From a virus, in IMG/VR virus record IMGVR_UViG_3300032087_001235, positions 1 through 31,273 of that record: DNA of 31,273 nt; one strand, 5' to 3'. The notes under the pieces were generated by a model, which searched no databases, was not told the DNA's origin, and saw only the letters and a list, made by a program, of their open reading frames with translations. Shown here piece after piece: positions 10,704-31,273 of this stretch. The position numbers and the translations under genes are program-made. Within the stretch, counting starts at the first letter, position 1. Each line of letters begins with the position of its first letter.

Positions 10704-10949
10704 ATGTATATCATACATCACACAATCAAATATCAGGCTGGCAATCGCGCCAGCTATACAGATAACTACCAGCTGGCCGATACGCTAGAAGAGGCGAAGA
10801 CAATCGCTCAGGGGCTGGTAGCAAGGCTGGGGGATGACCTGTACTGCTACTCTGTAGCCAAGGTCGTGGAAGCCTCAGAACCGCACTGGGTTGAGAAATC
10901 TGACCCGGCTGCAACCCTTGCACCCGATGCATGGGGGACGGACAAATGA
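10704..10949 (+). CDS. Small early hypothetical protein
   Basis: 81 residues, GGAAGGAG just before ATG 10704. Strand-rich start (YIIHHTIKYQ), then LADTLEEAKTIAQGLVARLGDDLYCYSVAKVVEA, a strand-helix-strand layout common in small phage proteins that carry a reporter of positional residues. The C-terminal 20 residues are polar and likely disordered. No named family. Its stop overlaps the next start (ATGA). Confidence 0.68.
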   Translation: MYIIHHTIKYQAGNRASYTDNYQLADTLEEAKTIAQGLVARLGDDLYCYSVAKVVEASEPHWVEKSDPAATLAPDAWGTDK

Positions 10950-11119
10950 CACCGCAACAGCTAAAAATCAAGCGTCAGTTCTTAGGATTGACGCAAGAGG
11001 AACTGGCCAAGATGTTTCTCATCACGGCCAGGACAATCAGAAACTATGAAACAGGCGCAACCGTCATTCCAAAAACATTTGAAATGGCATTGAACGCCTT
11101 GGAGCTGGAAAGGAAGTAA
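10946..11119 (+). CDS. Small Xre-type HTH protein
   Basis: 57 residues, nearly all HTH: QLKIKRQFLGLTQEELAKMF, then ITARTIRNYETGATVIPKTF. This is the lambda-repressor-like fold also seen in Xre and MqsA-type regulators. It overlaps the previous gene by 4 nt and lies 1 nt before the methyltransferase, so it could regulate its own early operon or act as a control protein for the methyltransferase. It lacks a separate dimerisation domain. Confidence 0.85.
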   Translation: MTPQQLKIKRQFLGLTQEELAKMFLITARTIRNYETGATVIPKTFEMALNALELERK

Positions 11120-11120
11120 A

Positions 11121-12134
11121 ATGAAAGTCATGTCATTATTCGATGGTATGTCTTGCGGGAGGCTGGCCCTTGATAGGGCTGGCCTTCCAGTCACTACCTA
11201 TTGGGCTAGTGAAATAGACAAGTACGCCACAAATATAGCCAAGAAAAACTGGCCTGAAACAGTGCATTTGGGAGATGTTCAGCAAATATCAGGCAAGGAC
11301 TTACCCAAGATTGACCTACTCATGGGCGGCTCACCCTGCCAGGGATTTTCATTTGCTGGAAAGGGTCTCAACTTTGATGACCCTCGAAGCAAGCTATTCT
11401 TTGAGTTTGTAAGGCTGATGAAAGAGTTGCAGCCAAAGTATTTCCTGCTTGAAAATGTCCGCATGAAACAGGAAAGCCAAGACATCATCAGCGAGTATCT
11501 AGGCGTTGAACCTGTAGCAATCAACAGCAGTCTGTTGTCCGCACAGAACCGTTACAGGCTGTACTGGACCAACATCCCTTTTGATATGCCAGAAGACAAA
11601 GGCATAAAACTGAAAGACATTCTTGAGGATGGTTATGTGGACAGAGACAAGTCACACTGCCTAGATGCTAATTACTTCAAGGGTGGCAATCTCAAACAAT
11701 ACTTTGAGAAACACAGAAGGCAGTTAGTGTTCAGTGATGATGGGCTTTGTCATGTTGGTGATGCAGCTTTGAAAGGCCACGGCTATAACCGCAGGGTGTA
11801 TCACCCCGAAGGGAAAGACCCAAGCCTATGTGCTGCGTCTGGCGGTAATCTTGAGCCTAAGATACTTCAAACGCCTCGAGGAGCAAACAAGGGCGGGTTA
11901 AAAGCTGGTGATGGCAAGACCCCATCCCTCACCACATCGTCATGGGAGCATAACAATCACTTGACCTATGACGAAGGCTTGACTTGGCGAAAACTCACAC
12001 CGATTGAATGTGAGAGGCTTCAAACTGTACCCGACAATTACACCGAAGGCGTAAGCAACACACAGCGGTACAGGATGCTGGGGAATGGCTGGACTGTGGA
12101 TGTCATAGCCCACATCCTGAAAGGCCTAGCCTAG
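11121..12134 (+). CDS. DNA (cytosine-5) methyltransferase
   Basis: 337 residues with the C5-methyltransferase motif order: motif I SLFDGMSCG (5-13), motif IV SPCQGFSFAG (71-80, catalytic Cys73), motif VI ENV (111-113), motif VIII QNRYRLYW (142-149), motif IX RLQTVPDNYT (299-308), motif X LGNGW (320-324). The target recognition region lies between VIII and IX and cannot be read. No cognate restriction enzyme is nearby, so it is a solitary phage methylase, probably shielding phage DNA from host restriction. It is the last gene before a strong terminator. Confidence 0.95.
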   Translation: MKVMSLFDGMSCGRLALDRAGLPVTTYWASEIDKYATNIAKKNWPETVHLGDVQQISGKDLPKIDLLMGGSPCQGFSFAGKGLNFDDPRSKLFFEFVRLMKELQPKYFLLENVRMKQESQDIISEYLGVEPVAINSSLLSAQNRYRLYWTNIPFDMPEDKGIKLKDILEDGYVDRDKSHCLDANYFKGGNLKQYFEKHRRQLVFSDDGLCHVGDAALKGHGYNRRVYHPEGKDPSLCAASGGNLEPKILQTPRGANKGGLKAGDGKTPSLTTSSWEHNNHLTYDEGLTWRKLTPIECERLQTVPDNYTEGVSNTQRYRMLGNGWTVDVIAHILKGLA

Positions 12135-12719: not shown

Positions 12720-12840
12720 GCCTCACCCATATCACCCTGCCAATGGCACCGTGCCAGCCTCTGATAGGTTGAGAAACCCAGCCAGCAGGAACAGGCTCAT
12801 GGGCCAGGGCATACCTGAACCTAGTGAACCGATGGTTCAT
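12706..12840 (-). CDS. Possible tiny protein overlapping the resolvase start
   Basis: 44 residues from ATG 12840, overlapping the end of the zinc-motif gene by 20 nt and the resolvase start by 14 nt. It fills the only gap in block C. The composition (FRYALAHEPVPAGW, then WHGAIGRVIWVRHD) is reminiscent of short phage proteins, and coding in this frame explains the spacing of neighbours. There is no clear ribosome site close to the start, so this is uncertain. Confidence 0.45.
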   Translation of the reverse strand: MNHRFTRFRYALAHEPVPAGWVSQPIRGWHGAIGRVIWVRHDKR

Positions 12841-13039
12841 GCATTGAGGAAAGAAACTGCTCCTCTTCTCCCTCAACCGACAACTCGCAGACCTCGCCGC
12901 TACCATTGCAAGTTTCACAATCCATCCATACGTCCTGAATACCGCCCCTTTCCCAAGGGGTTCGGTTACGGACAACCTCATACAAAGCACGGCCAGTGCC
13001 GCCACATTCAGGGCAATCAATCACGTTCACCAACTCCAT
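12821..13039 (-). CDS. DnaJ-type zinc-motif small protein
   Basis: 72 residues from ATG 13039 (an in-frame ATG at 13066 would add 9 residues; neither has a strong ribosome site). Two CxxCxGxG-like motifs, CPECGGTGRA at about 9-18 and CETCNGSGE at about 41-49, are those of DnaJ-type zinc fingers, so one zinc ion is probably held by the two pairs. Similar tiny proteins are common in phages without known roles. Acidic C-terminus. Overlaps the repressor gene end. Confidence 0.75.
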   Translation of the reverse strand: MELVNVIDCPECGGTGRALYEVVRNRTPWERGGIQDVWMDCETCNGSGEVCELSVEGEEEQFLSSMHEPSVH

Positions 13040-13229
13040 AATAGTGTCTAAAGAAATCACTCGCATCGACCTGACCCTGTGTTGCCTCGTGGATAACGAC
13101 CATGGTTTCCGGCGATGGAAACCGCTGTCGATTGATTATCCTTGATATGGCAGCCGGAGACAACCCGCAGCTCAAGGCGAAGGCCCGTTGCGAAATACCA
13201 TTCTTTTCAAGATAGTCTGATAAAAACAT
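13017..13229 (-). CDS. Cro/CI-type HTH repressor
   Basis: 70 residues: FLSDYLEKNGISQRAFA, then SCGLSPAAISRIINRQRFPSPETM, the Cro/CI lambda-like HTH at about 5-55. No C-terminal oligomerisation or self-cleavage domain, so it is closer to Cro in size. ATG 13229 has no Shine-Dalgarno. The predicted promoter puts the mRNA start at or next to the AUG, suggesting a leaderless message like lambda cI. It probably binds the palindrome at 13250-13264 and controls both its own block and the divergent recombination block. Confidence 0.88.
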   Translation of the reverse strand: MFLSDYLEKNGISQRAFALSCGLSPAAISRIINRQRFPSPETMVVIHEATQGQVDASDFFRHYYGVGERD

Positions 13230-13235
13230 AACTTT

Positions 13236-13264
13236 TTTCTACATGAGTGTTGACACGCTGTCAA
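13236..13264 (-). promoter_or_regulatory. Predicted repressor promoter (minus), likely leaderless
   Basis: Read on the minus strand: TTGACA (13264-13259), 17-bp spacer, TAGAAA (13241-13236). A transcript beginning 6-7 nt later starts at about 13229, the repressor AUG. The -35 box is one arm of the palindrome at 13250-13264. Confidence 0.6.
13250..13264. promoter_or_regulatory. Palindromic operator shared by two divergent -35 boxes
   Basis: TTGACA-CGC-TGTCAA, a perfect 6-3-6 inverted repeat. Each arm is a consensus -35 for one of the two divergent promoters. A dimeric repressor on this site would cover both -35 boxes. The adjacent HTH gene makes it the natural operator; binding is inferred. 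Confidence 0.7.
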
Positions 13265-13278
13265 TGCCTGTTTATGAA
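13250..13278 (+). promoter_or_regulatory. Predicted promoter of the recombination/replication block
   Basis: TTGACA (13250-13255, consensus), 17-bp spacer, TATGAA (13273-13278). The transcript would start near 13285, just before a long hairpin and 84 nt before ATG 13369. Confidence 0.75.
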
Positions 13279-13286
13279 GGGGTTAT

Positions 13287-13350
13287 GGGGGTGAGGCACC
13301 AACAAAATGGGTTTTCTCCTTTCACCATAAAAAAATGGTGCTTCATCCCC
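13287..13350 (+). promoter_or_regulatory. Leader hairpin, possibly with two alternative folds
   Basis: 13287-13301 can pair with 13336-13350 over 15 positions (13 Watson-Crick, 2 G-U). A competing perfect hairpin pairs CACCAT (13323-13328) with ATGGTG (13335-13340) around an A6 loop and uses bases of the first 3' arm, so the two exclude each other. The structure starts at the predicted mRNA 5' end and stops 8 nt before the GGAGG at 13359-13363. It may protect the mRNA end or control translation. Confidence 0.5.
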
Positions 13351-13368
13351 AGCAACTTGGAGGGCTTC

Positions 13369-14262
13369 ATGCAGAAAGAAACACCACAGTATTCACTTGA
13401 GTTTGGTCGCAAGCACGTTAGCGCATCCGGCGGCACTCAGTCCACCGATGAACATATCCTCAAACTCTATCTGAGAAAGGAACACGGCGTTAACTTCCCA
13501 ATGTCATCACGCCCAAGAGCGGGACAGGCAGTGCAAGCTATCTGCGATATGCACTTTGGGCTGGACAACTACAGCCCCATCAATGGACCCAAGCAGGGCT
13601 TGCCTGTCGCCGATGCAATTCGCAAGGGCCGGATGGAGTACGCACTGTTCTCACCACTAGACTGGGACAACGGCAAGGATGCAGAGGCCAAGGAAGAGTT
13701 CATTGAACACCTTGAGCAGATGTCCCTTCACGCCATTGACGGCATTAAAGAGTATTTCGGAAACCAAGACATCGAAGGCGAGTATCAGCGGTTCTACATA
13801 GAAGAGCGCATTGATGTGCCTGTCACTATGTTTCTTGACTATGCCAGCGACACACTGGAACTGGACCTGAAATGCTCATTCCCCCTGCGTAACCCGCCCA
13901 AGAAGGACGGCACAAGGACATGGCGGGTGCCAAAACCCCGCACCGAACCAACGGAATCACAGCTTGCCCAGCAAGCCGTGTATTGGAAGGCAACTGGATT
14001 GCGTCCAGGATTGCTTTTCGTGACCTCTGACGGCTATCACCTAGCCACAGAGGATAATACCCCATCTCTCAAGCCAGAGGCCTTGGAAGAGGCTTATAAC
14101 GCGATTGTGCAGAGGTGGCTAGTGGTGCAGAACCTGATGAAAGCTGCGAATGGAAACTGGAAGACTTTGTTTTCGATGGTTGCACCTGATTTTGGCCAGA
14201 TTTCTGGGCGGCACGGCCCTGAGATTCTGAATATTGCTAAACAAATGTGGAGTGTGAAATGA
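13369..14262 (+). CDS. RecB/Cas4-like PD-(D/E)XK exonuclease
   Basis: 297 residues from ATG 13369. The longer open frame starting at 13243 is rejected because GGAGG lies 5 nt before 13369 and the extra part crosses the promoter. Nuclease core: EERIDVPVTMFLDYASDTLELDLKC (about 145-169), giving Asp157, Asp166 and Lys168, followed by QLAQQAVYWKATG (198-210), the QxxxY helix typical of RecB-like and Cas4-like nucleases. Probably a 5'-3' DNA exonuclease that makes single strands for the annealing protein encoded downstream, as in lambda Exo/Beta type pairs. Confidence 0.82.
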   Translation: MQKETPQYSLEFGRKHVSASGGTQSTDEHILKLYLRKEHGVNFPMSSRPRAGQAVQAICDMHFGLDNYSPINGPKQGLPVADAIRKGRMEYALFSPLDWDNGKDAEAKEEFIEHLEQMSLHAIDGIKEYFGNQDIEGEYQRFYIEERIDVPVTMFLDYASDTLELDLKCSFPLRNPPKKDGTRTWRVPKPRTEPTESQLAQQAVYWKATGLRPGLLFVTSDGYHLATEDNTPSLKPEALEEAYNAIVQRWLVVQNLMKAANGNWKTLFSMVAPDFGQISGRHGPEILNIAKQMWSVK

Positions 14263-14675: not shown

Positions 14676-14823
14676 GCAGCAACACGCACAGGCCATTGAC
14701 CTGACGTTGGAGCGTATCAATCGCCTTGAAAAAGAAGTGCAGGAAATGAAGGAAATGATTTTCTTTGTTATGCGCAATGTAAACCAAATGGCTGGAGAAG
14801 AGGAAACTCAAAATGAGCAGTAA
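14662..14823 (+). CDS. Small coiled-coil protein
   Basis: 53 residues from ATG 14662. Heptad-like pattern through residues 5-45 (IDLTLERINRLEKEVQEMKEM), then a Met/Phe-rich stretch (IFFVMRNVNQMAG) and a Glu/Gln tail. It is probably a dimerising coiled coil, possibly an accessory subunit of the replication/recombination set. It overlaps the annealing-protein start by 11 nt. Confidence 0.68.
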   Translation: MTEVEQQHAQAIDLTLERINRLEKEVQEMKEMIFFVMRNVNQMAGEEETQNEQ

Positions 14824-15481
14824 AATCTTTGATGCCATGGGCCTAGTGCAGGAATACAACAAAAAGCACGGTGTGGCTCAGAGGGGTGGCAAGACCTACA
14901 CACAGGTTGTGCATCGGATGGAAGCGTTCCGGCAAGTGTTCGGGATGGAGTTCGGTGTTGATACCACCATTGTTGTTGACGATGGACAAAGGGTCGTGAT
15001 ACGAGCTATCATTACGAATGGCGAAGGGCTTACCATCGGCTCTGGCCACGCAGAAGAAATCAGAGGAGATGGCCACGTTAATAAAACATCGGCCATTGAG
15101 AACTGTGAAACTTCCGCTATAGGTCGTGCTTTAAGTAGCATTGGCCTCAGTGGCGGCGAGTACGCTTCTGCAAACGAGATGGACGCTGTTGGACGCAAGC
15201 AACAGAACCTATCGAATCAGGTTGGCGGCGGCAGAGCAGACCCCTCCGCTGCGGATGCGCCGCCACCTGACCCATCCCCCGAAGACAAACAAAAACGGAA
15301 GGACAAACTTCTGTATCTGGACATTGCTAACACTTTGCCCAGCAAGAAGTCGCGGCAGTCTGTTGAGCAATTCTTCCTCGACAATAAACCCGCGATTAAA
15401 GAACTGCGTGACAGGGATGCCGGTAAGGCAGACCTGATAATGAAACTTTTTGAAGACAGAATCAAAGAACTAGGAGTATAA
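14813..15481 (+). CDS. Putative single-strand annealing protein
   Basis: 222 residues. Core about 30-125: TYTQVVHRMEAFRQVFG, strands with VVIRAIIT, then KTSAIENCETSAIGRALSSIG (91-111) and EYASANEM (117-123). This TxAIENCETSAVGRAL-SIGL-x-ASANE pattern marks a large phage group related to Rad52/ERF-like annealing proteins. The C-terminal third has a Pro/Asp-rich linker (about 140-160) and a charged helical end. It would anneal single strands made by the upstream nuclease, with the SSB gene right behind. The exact SSAP family is not settled by eye. Confidence 0.72.
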   Translation: MSSKIFDAMGLVQEYNKKHGVAQRGGKTYTQVVHRMEAFRQVFGMEFGVDTTIVVDDGQRVVIRAIITNGEGLTIGSGHAEEIRGDGHVNKTSAIENCETSAIGRALSSIGLSGGEYASANEMDAVGRKQQNLSNQVGGGRADPSAADAPPPDPSPEDKQKRKDKLLYLDIANTLPSKKSRQSVEQFFLDNKPAIKELRDRDAGKADLIMKLFEDRIKELGV

Positions 15482-29392: not shown

Positions 29393-31273
29393 CGAATGTA
29401 TTTGACCTCCGCATGATAGCTATAATCGTCATCGGTAGCGGCTGCGACTGCTTAATAACAACACGGGAATCATTGTCATAACCAGATGGGAAGGAAACCT
29501 CTTTGTCACCGCTAAAGATTGGAACAGCAGTATCCATATCCATGCTTGAATCTCTGAATGGGATGCGGTCCAGCGATGTCAGTGTAGGCCCAACCTCTGC
29601 ACCCACGGTTTCTAGGAATCGGACCGTTACGCCATGAATCCGCTTTATCTTGCCTTGGGAGACACCATCATTAGCCCCACCCTCAAGCCTCAAAGTCTGA
29701 ACTATAGAATCGTAGCCATAACCAACGTGAACCTTTGTAGCACTCCTGTCTAGCGTCACGGACCCGCCTGAAACGGTCTTGTCTGCGTGTGCCGAACCGT
29801 CTGCAACAATCTGAACTGTCTCCCCCTCTAGGTGGTTCAGGCCCGTAATCGTTGAGGTTGATGAACCGCTGTATGTCAGGCCACTGTCCACAAAGAAAGC
29901 ATCTGTAATGTCACCGCCAAAGTTAATTGGCTTTAGAAACTCAATGTGACGCACAGTCGAACCGTTAATGGTGCGCTTGACTGAAACATACACTTGGTCT
30001 TCTGCCCCCGATGGGATTGCTGTGATACTCTCAACAACCCCGCTGCCTCCGATATTGTGGTCATGCCACCCTATCGCCGCATTTGCTCGGTCATACGTCA
30101 AACCAATAAGGCCACCATCATTGTGAACAAACCACAGGATAAGTTCAGGCTCCTGTTGCCAAATCATGTCAGACACACCACCGCGAGTAATGTGGTCAGC
30201 CAGAATGGTAAGGTCTACGCCCAAAAGCCCGTCAGTGTCCAAGTCAAACGTAATCTCTTTAATCTTCTCAAGACCCTTCTGAACCAGAATGGTAGAGTTT
30301 CCAGCCCGTAAAGGACGCACATCAGATGTTCCAAATGTAGTCTCCCGCAAGACGTTTACATTTGTTGGGGTTACAGGTGTAGCACCCGTGCCGCCGGACA
30401 GGGTAAACTCCGAACTTGTTGTAAGAATCTGCAAGAACCTACCCGGAAGCAAGTGCTTGATGACGTTAACCTGGTCAGATGCAATCGTAATATTTACCGC
30501 ATCATCGTCTTCTGTGCCTGGGGTGTGATTCTCAAAATCGGCACTCTGTGAGCCAAAGATAGTCTGTGGTTGGCCTGTCGTGCCAGCAAAGTATAGACGC
30601 TGCTCGTAGAATGCTACAGCCTTTGGAAACCCCTGGTCTCCACCAAACGCCCCAAGCGACCAACGCTTTGTAGCGTTACTTGAGCCTACAATGTGGTCTG
30701 GCAGTGTGGAGTTGCCAAACTCGTCTTCATGCACCGTAGCTGTCACCTCCGTTGCGCTGGTAAAAGCCGTAATCTTTACATGGCCGAAGCCATCGTGCTG
30801 GTATTCCCAGTCTAGCGCACCATAGGTTTCTGTGCCTTCAAGATGCACAGGCGGTGTGTTCCCAGATGTTTGGGTGCTTCCAGTTACGCTTTTGTACACA
30901 TGACCATTATAACGCACTGTATCGCCATCAGCATAACTTGTGCTTGCTGCCCATTCATCATGATGGATTTCAAGCACCTCACGAAAACGGATAAGTCGCC
31001 CAATATCATCACTGCTAAACAAGTCAGCAGATGCTATAATAGTTACGCTGCCTGTTTGCGCTGAAGCGTACAAAGTGGTCGATGTTGTGTTTTCATCAAG
31101 ATACGGGCCATCAACAAAGTCAATGTCTGTAAGGCTGAAGCTAGTCGCTGTTGTGCGGGTCAGCTTGGCTGGTGCGTGGTCTTTGTGGGCAATGAAAAGA
31201 ACATCCGCTGACTGAGCGTGGTTCAGTTCAAAAATCTCTGTGACGCTGTAAGAAGTAGCTACTTCAGCTATTT
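29385..31273 (-). CDS. Tail tubular protein B-like (nozzle), C-terminal part; begins at 611 after circularisation
   Basis: The remaining 599 residues of the nozzle protein that starts at 611 (31183-31273 duplicate 1-91). The N-terminal part of this piece is VLFIAHKDHAPAKL, then WAASTSYADGDTVRYNGHVYKS, RWSLGAFGGDQGFPKAVAFYEQRLYFAGT, and FLQILTTSSEFTLSG, all typical of podovirus nozzle-like proteins. Later segments are beta-rich with GGVSDMIWQQEP and DGGLIGLTYDR. The end overlaps the GNAT-like gene by 8 nt. An internal start gives 562 residues, but the continuing frame across the junction shows that is not the real start. Confidence 0.88.
   Translation of the reverse strand, partial: IAEVATSYSVTEIFELNHAQSADVLFIAHKDHAPAKLTRTTATSFSLTDIDFVDGPYLDENTTSTTLYASAQTGSVTIIASADLFSSDDIGRLIRFREVLEIHHDEWAASTSYADGDTVRYNGHVYKSVTGSTQTSGNTPPVHLEGTETYGALDWEYQHDGFGHVKITAFTSATEVTATVHEDEFGNSTLPDHIVGSSNATKRWSLGAFGGDQGFPKAVAFYEQRLYFAGTTGQPQTIFGSQSADFENHTPGTEDDDAVNITIASDQVNVIKHLLPGRFLQILTTSSEFTLSGGTGATPVTPTNVNVLRETTFGTSDVRPLRAGNSTILVQKGLEKIKEITFDLDTDGLLGVDLTILADHITRGGVSDMIWQQEPELILWFVHNDGGLIGLTYDRANAAIGWHDHNIGGSGVVESITAIPSGAEDQVYVSVKRTINGSTVRHIEFLKPINFGGDITDAFFVDSGLTYSGSSTSTITGLNHLEGETVQIVADGSAHADKTVSGGSVTLDRSATKVHVGYGYDSIVQTLRLEGGANDGVSQGKIKRIHGVTVRFLETVGAEVGPTLTSLDRIPFRDSSMDMDTAVPIFSGDKEVSFPSGYDNDSRVVIKQSQPLPMTIIAIMRRSNTFDA
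31183..31273. repeat. Right copy of 91-bp terminal direct repeat
   Basis: Identical to bases 1-91. It can be removed to obtain one 31,182-bp circle without affecting any gene. Confidence 0.97.

Follow-up and report, generated by a model that had tools for sequence, protein, structure and literature searches.

A 15-bp palindrome as putative shared operator and -35 element of divergent early and repressor promoters in the viral record IMGVR_UViG_3300032087_001235

Analysis of the IMG/VR record IMGVR_UViG_3300032087_001235 over its whole length of 31,273 bases (the window) revealed a perfect 6-3-6 palindrome, TTGACACGCTGTCAA (TTGACA-CGC-TGTCAA), at positions 13250-13264. With a probability of about 0.8, the neighbouring 70-residue Cro-type HTH protein uses this palindrome as its only operator, and would through it shut both an early operon and its own gene. 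The left half would be the -35 box of the promoter of the early (nuclease/recombination/replication) operon, and the right half that of the repressor's own leaderless promoter. One dimer bound to the 15-bp site would cover both -35 boxes, turning off the early operon and the synthesis of the repressor together. Since each -35 box lies inside the spacer of the other promoter, the two RNA polymerases would exclude each other. Repression would probably be self-limiting, so that early transcription occurs as a pulse or settles at a set level. What is observed directly is how the sequence elements are arranged and that this arrangement is conserved together with the repressor; from this we infer binding, dimer stoichiometry, start sites, the direction of regulation and the physiological role.

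Scanning of the whole record found the palindrome to be the sole perfect copy and the sole match at one mismatch or fewer. Direct reading of the sequence confirmed both the palindrome described in an earlier note on this DNA and the two promoters which that note had drawn from its arms, TTGACA-17-TATGAA on the plus strand and TTGACA-17-TAGAAA on the minus strand (Table 1). In the minus promoter, 6 nt separate TAGAAA (13241-13236) from the repressor ATG at 13229. Both -10 hexamers are weak, matching TATAAT at 4 of 6 positions and lacking the T at the last position, and neither is listed by a standard promoter scan of the record. A perfect 6-3-6 inverted repeat alone is weak evidence; 15 were found in the record against about 7.6 expected, and about 0.03 would be expected by arithmetic in the 139-bp intergenic region. 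The combination of such a palindrome with -10-like hexamers 17 nt away on both sides (both arms matching TTGACA at 5/6 or better, the -10-like hexamer matching TATAAT at 4/6 or better) occurs once in the record and in 0 of 60 dinucleotide shuffles. Geometry from one sequence is suggestive only, and the decisive evidence is conservation.

Table 1. Features of the divergent control region and its flanks (positions in the window; TSS, transcription start site; SD, Shine-Dalgarno sequence).
Feature	Coordinates	Strand	Evidence
70-aa Cro/CI-type HTH repressor, apparently leaderless	13017..13229	-	Pfam HTH_3, PHROG, AlphaFold, no SD
Predicted minus -10 TAGAAA, 17 nt from -35; TSS expected at about the repressor ATG, 13229	13236..13241	-	TA in 26/28 class A, 19/19 class B
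Palindrome, putative operator of the HTH repressor, each arm a -35 hexamer	13250..13264	.	Sequence, uniqueness in the record, conservation beside homologous repressors
Predicted plus (nuclease operon) promoter -35 TTGACA	13250..13255	+	Invariant in one-palindrome relatives; kept in repressor-less L140, L142, L134
Predicted minus (repressor) promoter -35 TTGACA, inside the spacer of the plus promoter	13259..13264	-	Sequence; TTGACA also in class B and L119; elsewhere in class A TTGCCA/TTACCA/TAGACA
Predicted plus -10 TATGAA, 17 nt from -35; predicted TSS about 13285	13273..13278	+	TA in 28/28 distinct relatives; hairpin begins at predicted TSS
Leader hairpin, 16-bp stem, arms 13286-13301 and 13336-13351	13286..13351	+	Begins at predicted plus TSS, ends before SD; comparable stems of other sequences in relatives
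Shine-Dalgarno GGAGGG of the nuclease gene	13359..13364	+	Sequence
First gene of the plus operon, syntenic homologue of the 'putative nuclease' gene in cultured HTVC010P-type phages	13369..14262	+	80 IMG/VR homologues kept; tblastn to HTVC106P, C72C1; gene order as HTVC034P

Sequence and modelled structure identify the 70-residue protein as a Cro/CI-type HTH repressor with a lambda-repressor-like five-helix fold. It matches Pfam HTH_3 above the cut-off (E 5e-9; 36.5 bits against 23), and its PHROG match is a transcriptional repressor. The AlphaFold model (pLDDT 92.8) has five helices, and its structure matches include YdaS, with P22 c2, the 434 repressor and SinR among those with Z of about 8. 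The palindrome is flanked by the gene of this protein on one side and the nuclease-type gene on the other, with no second regulator. In the phage collection, the repressor of an AT-rich relative matched only Rhizobium phage RHph_Y25 and Microcystis phage Mae-JY35, where the homologue (annotated as cro-like in RHph_Y25) occupies a cro-like position opposite a C-type repressor. Beyond the repressor on the minus side are a small Zn-finger-like gene and then a PDDEXK/RusA-like nuclease; on the plus side, gene 13369-14262 is followed by a gene at 14813-15481, in the position that the single-strand annealing protein (SSAP) occupies in HTVC010P-type phages, and then by a DnaA-C-like protein. A second HTH_3 protein of 62 aa (10931-11119, plus strand) is encoded directly upstream of a C5 DNA methyltransferase (11121-12134), a layout resembling that of a methylase controller gene.

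The terminase large subunit (TerL) is 51-55% identical to those of cultured HTVC010P-type pelagiphages, and the gene order nuclease, SSAP, DnaA-like is that of HTVC034P. Terminase and genome organisation thus place the record, as far as sequence can tell, among the HTVC010P-type phages (proposed Ubiqueviridae), which rank with the most abundant marine phages known (PMC12753301, PMC10504331). At 31.3 kb the record falls slightly below the length of about 33-35 kb seen in most full-size relatives. The GC content is 48-50% over the record, and the host may not be SAR11 (Pelagibacter). The tyrosine recombinase (PF00589) and resolvase (PF00239) families were not found in the record, which may be incomplete; this agrees with the description of a phage with no integrase given previously. 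PF00589 was also absent from nine records, in a search with positive controls.

A search of IMG/VR with the nuclease protein recovered 106 relatives, of which 80 were kept; a repressor homologue is encoded in 69 of these 80, as well as in L001, L002 and the present record. A TTGACA-N3 palindrome was found at every locus with a repressor homologue (right arm TGnn[AT]A, at least 4/6 symmetric pairs, at most 1.6 kb upstream of the nuclease gene), the sites following the pattern TTGACA-N3-TG[GT][CTA][AT]A. Where the repressor gene directly abuts the site, which gives 48 distinct upstream regions, the distance from site to ATG is 20 nt in 35 of them (range 15-21). Loci in which the repressor is separated from the palindrome (L152, L154) or in which an extra gene or a longer stretch lies between the two (L001, L002, L100) were left out of such ATG-anchored counts. 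Mean arm symmetry over the 48 distinct regions, whose independence is limited by close kinship among the relatives (10 clusters at 75% repressor identity), is 5.25/6, compared with 0.69-1.69 after shifting the right arm by 1-3 nt. Symmetry holds at arm positions 1, 5 and 6 in 48/48 regions and at position 4 in 25/48. Searching again, this time with a repressor profile, found further loci with the same layout and the same site.

The palindrome is therefore conserved wherever a homologous repressor was found across related phages, the comparison that the earlier note had proposed. Its additional expectation that the two arms co-vary was not borne out: the left arm is invariant, and the right arm varies, from TTGACA to forms resembling TTGCCA. 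On a simple reading, polymerase and repressor would both constrain the left arm, and the right arm would be constrained mainly by the repressor.

Other searches covered wider collections. Neither the record's own promoter region nor its repressor had a match in the phage collection in searches at DNA and protein level. An exact 15-mer scan of IMG/VR returned 93 stretches of DNA; these matches were not used as evidence, because their count is near chance by a rough estimate from the collection size. In the unrelated contigs L027, L071, L074, L075 and L025 the exact 15-mer is repeated in tandem (TTGACACGCTGTCAAC every 21-22 bp) or appears as two copies closely facing each other; these may be operator arrays of another system.

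Two promoter architectures were recognised among the relatives. Class A consists of this record and 27 other distinct sites, with one palindrome each. The left arm, which provides the plus -35 box, is TTGACA in all 28 sites, and a plus -10 hexamer starting with TA, mostly TAAGAC, follows at 17 nt in 28/28. The minus -35 box is TTGCCA in 18 sites, TAGACA in 4, TTACCA in 3, TTGACA in 2 and TTTACA in 1. Counting 17 nt from the right arm, 26/28 sites have a minus -10 hexamer that starts with TA. TTGCCA is one base from the -35 consensus, so that merging an operator half with a -35 box would be easy. An exact TTGACA right arm was found only in this record, L119/L121 and class B. In L097-L099 and L178-L181 the spacing of the minus promoter is shifted, and the right arm is misplaced for the best -10 hexamer.

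Class B comprises 19 distinct AT-rich sites with a perfect palindrome. The right arm gives TTGACA-17-TATTAT in 13 of them and a TA start of the minus -10 hexamer in all 19, while the plus promoter is served by a second TTGAC[AG] located 32-33 bp further on. In both classes the minus start is predicted at or near the repressor ATG, which mostly lies 5-6 nt past the minus -10 hexamer. Arithmetic puts the operator centre in class B (L145-L175) near -61 relative to the predicted plus start. Some regulators activate from a distance of about 61 bp, and the effect of the repressor on the plus promoter could differ from that in class A.

These data bear on a different explanation, in which the palindrome is still the repressor's operator but overlaps the -35 box of a single genuine promoter, that of the early operon; the repressor would have its promoter elsewhere, and the second shared -35 box would be a by-product of operator symmetry. 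Many class A relatives do have a right arm that makes a poor -35 box (TTACCA, TAGACA), in L097-L099 the arm is wrongly spaced for the best -10 hexamer, and TAGAAA is a weak -10 hexamer. The weak -10 hexamers of this record and the non-consensus minus -35 box in most of class A are counterpoints to the one-operator reading as well. However, the minus -10 hexamer starts with TA at 17 nt in 45 of the 47 distinct sites of both classes, at a near-constant distance to the ATG, and in class B, with its mostly TTGACA-17-TATTAT sites and separate plus promoter, the palindrome clearly fits a repressor promoter. An early promoter without a repressor counterpart is consequently considered unlikely.

A Shine-Dalgarno-like sequence before the repressor ATG was found in 0 of 48 distinct upstream regions, and in this record an in-frame stop is located 12 nt before the ATG. 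A leaderless start is a reading consistent with the spacing of the minus promoter and with the lack of a Shine-Dalgarno sequence, in line with the previous proposal that the minus transcript begins at about the repressor AUG.

The leader hairpin is an independent mark of the predicted plus start. Its stem, up to 16 bp long, starts at +2 in this record, at most 1 nt from the predicted plus start in L101, L103-L105, L109 and L136, and at most 2 nt from it in L182 and L184. The stem arms differ in sequence between groups of relatives yet pair, and the 3' arm ends shortly before the Shine-Dalgarno sequence. Shifted stems occur in L097-L100, L102 and L001, and relatives with short leaders have none. 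The hairpin loop of this record (13302-13335) contains UUCUCC, and the loops of several class A relatives contain CUCC, complementary to the Shine-Dalgarno sequence. An Rfam search of positions 12800-13700 gave no match.

A terminator scan flags 13247-13267, as would be expected if the inverted repeat of the palindrome acted as RNA, in the form of a terminator or hairpin. Such an RNA element was rejected, since the repeat lies upstream of both predicted starts, has a loop of 3 nt and is not followed by a U run. Moreover, in the commonest relative, TTGACAGATTGGCAA, an A stands opposite a G in the arm, which would weaken an RNA stem and leave a DNA half-site. A role of the repeat in RNA is thus extremely improbable.

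Presence of the site follows presence of the repressor gene. In a clade of five relatives (L140-L144) the TTGACA promoter is kept, the palindrome is absent and no repressor was detected; for L140 and L142, no repressor homologue was found over the whole 33-34 kb records. L134, a 9.8-kb record, likewise has TTGACA without palindrome or repressor. The exceptions are L116 and L124, which keep the palindrome TTGACACCGTGGCAA and for which no repressor was found on their incomplete contigs.

The comparison extends to 27 distant repressor homologues, which come from two phages, one genome of another kind and otherwise alphaproteobacterial genomes. Around their start codons, perfect 6-bp inverted repeats number 11 with a gap of 3 and 15 with a gap of 5, each against about 1.5 expected, and are not over-represented at gaps of 0, 2, 4 and 6. 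This enrichment at odd gaps suggests that the repressor family tends to have odd-centred palindromes beside its own gene. A frequent form is nnnCCA-N3-TGGnnn, and the sequences differ from the site of the record. The palindromes adjoining distant homologues in alphaproteobacterial chromosomes (L257-L283) are sometimes paired (for example in L273, L275 and L279).

The motif TTGAC...GTCAA resembles the boxes of the FNR family, and the site could in principle belong to a host regulator of that kind, for example as an FNR/FixK-type box TTGA-N6-TCAA, rather than to the phage repressor. Such boxes are 14 bp long, whereas the site here is 15 bp long with a constant 3-nt centre in all relatives, and the FNR/FixK-type box was rejected on this spacing. 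The site also tracks the repressor gene, and distant homologues adjoin odd-centred palindromes of other sequence, which makes a host regulator very unlikely.

The classical model for comparison is the OR region of lambda (cI/cro, PRM/PR), with two regulators, divergent promoters, operators inside the promoters, three operators per region and an integrase. The present region shares with it a small HTH regulator, divergent promoters, an operator inside the promoters and, by prediction, a leaderless repressor mRNA, as is known for lambda cI (PMC8630535). Unlike lambda, it has one regulator and one operator, no recombinase was found, and the -35 boxes are the two halves of that one operator. Of the hallmarks of a lambda-type switch, neither two antagonistic flanking regulators nor several operator copies are present, and no integrase was found in the record, which may be incomplete. 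With one autorepressed regulator, a pulse or a set point is expected and not a two-state lambda switch. In the earlier description of a very compact genetic switch, the word 'switch' is therefore an overstatement for one operator with one autorepressing Cro-type regulator, no adjoining CI partner and no evidence of lysogeny. An unlikely further possibility is that HTVC010P-type phages without an integrase use this one-dimer operator to keep their whole early operon off while the phage lies dormant, reversibly and unintegrated; exclusion between the polymerases, which meet at one -35 region, would then decide in which direction the locus fires.

Closer parallels exist for parts of the layout. 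Among solved structures, CP-933P YdaS is one of those closest to the repressor in both sequence and fold. The CP-933P YdaS/PaaR2 region is divergent and partly leaderless, with operators over both promoters, two antagonistic regulators and several 18-bp repeats (PMC8630535); the divergent layout with operator sequence over both promoters is common to both, with a single 15-bp site here in place of the repeats. Mycobacteriophage BPs also has an intergenic palindromic operator and divergent promoters (Prep/PR), but it uses separate operators and integration-dependent immunity; its OR is located between the -10 and -35 boxes of PR, and a 12-bp palindrome constitutes only a half site (PMC4557955). 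Bidirectional promoters with symmetric -10 elements have starts 10-23 bp apart and mutually exclusive polymerases (Warman et al., PMC12825309). Symmetry serving both strands and polymerase exclusion would be alike here, but the symmetric element is the -35 box and the predicted starts are about 56 bp apart.

The cultured phages HTVC010P, HTVC034P, HTVC203P, HTVC204P, Lederberg and Skadi share with the record the gene order, a small HTH gene that points away from the nuclease operon, and TerL identity of up to 55%. In contrast, their HTH proteins are only 28% identical, and TTGACA, where present, lies outside any palindrome. Most of their HTH genes have a purine-rich, Shine-Dalgarno-like leader. 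Lederberg and HTVC204P (among L291-L296) carry short AT-rich palindromes, GTTATATATAAC and GATATATATATC, 24-30 nt from the divergent HTH gene, possibly operators of different sequence. The start annotated for HTVC010P gp53 (L289, 30415-30801) probably lies upstream of the true one, which would be at 30568 (MTLKEW...), after a Shine-Dalgarno-like sequence. The relatives form a natural series, from cultured isolates with separate operator and promoter, through class B, where the operator is joined with the repressor's own -35 box, to class A and this record, where one palindrome serves for everything.

Overlapping divergent phage promoters with internal operators (lambda; CP-933P, PMC8630535; BPs, PMC4557955) and leaderless repressor mRNAs are already well known. 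A limited search of open papers turned up no published example of a single operator whose two halves each form a -35 box, and, for early-gene control in HTVC010P-type phages, no description beyond predicted regulators. If the proposed arrangement is true, it would be one of the smallest known two-promoter control elements, and why phages without a detected integrase keep a repressor of the early operon would become a question. It also makes a precise prediction that is cheap to test, namely that the 15-bp site should bind the 70-residue protein and control two promoters at once.
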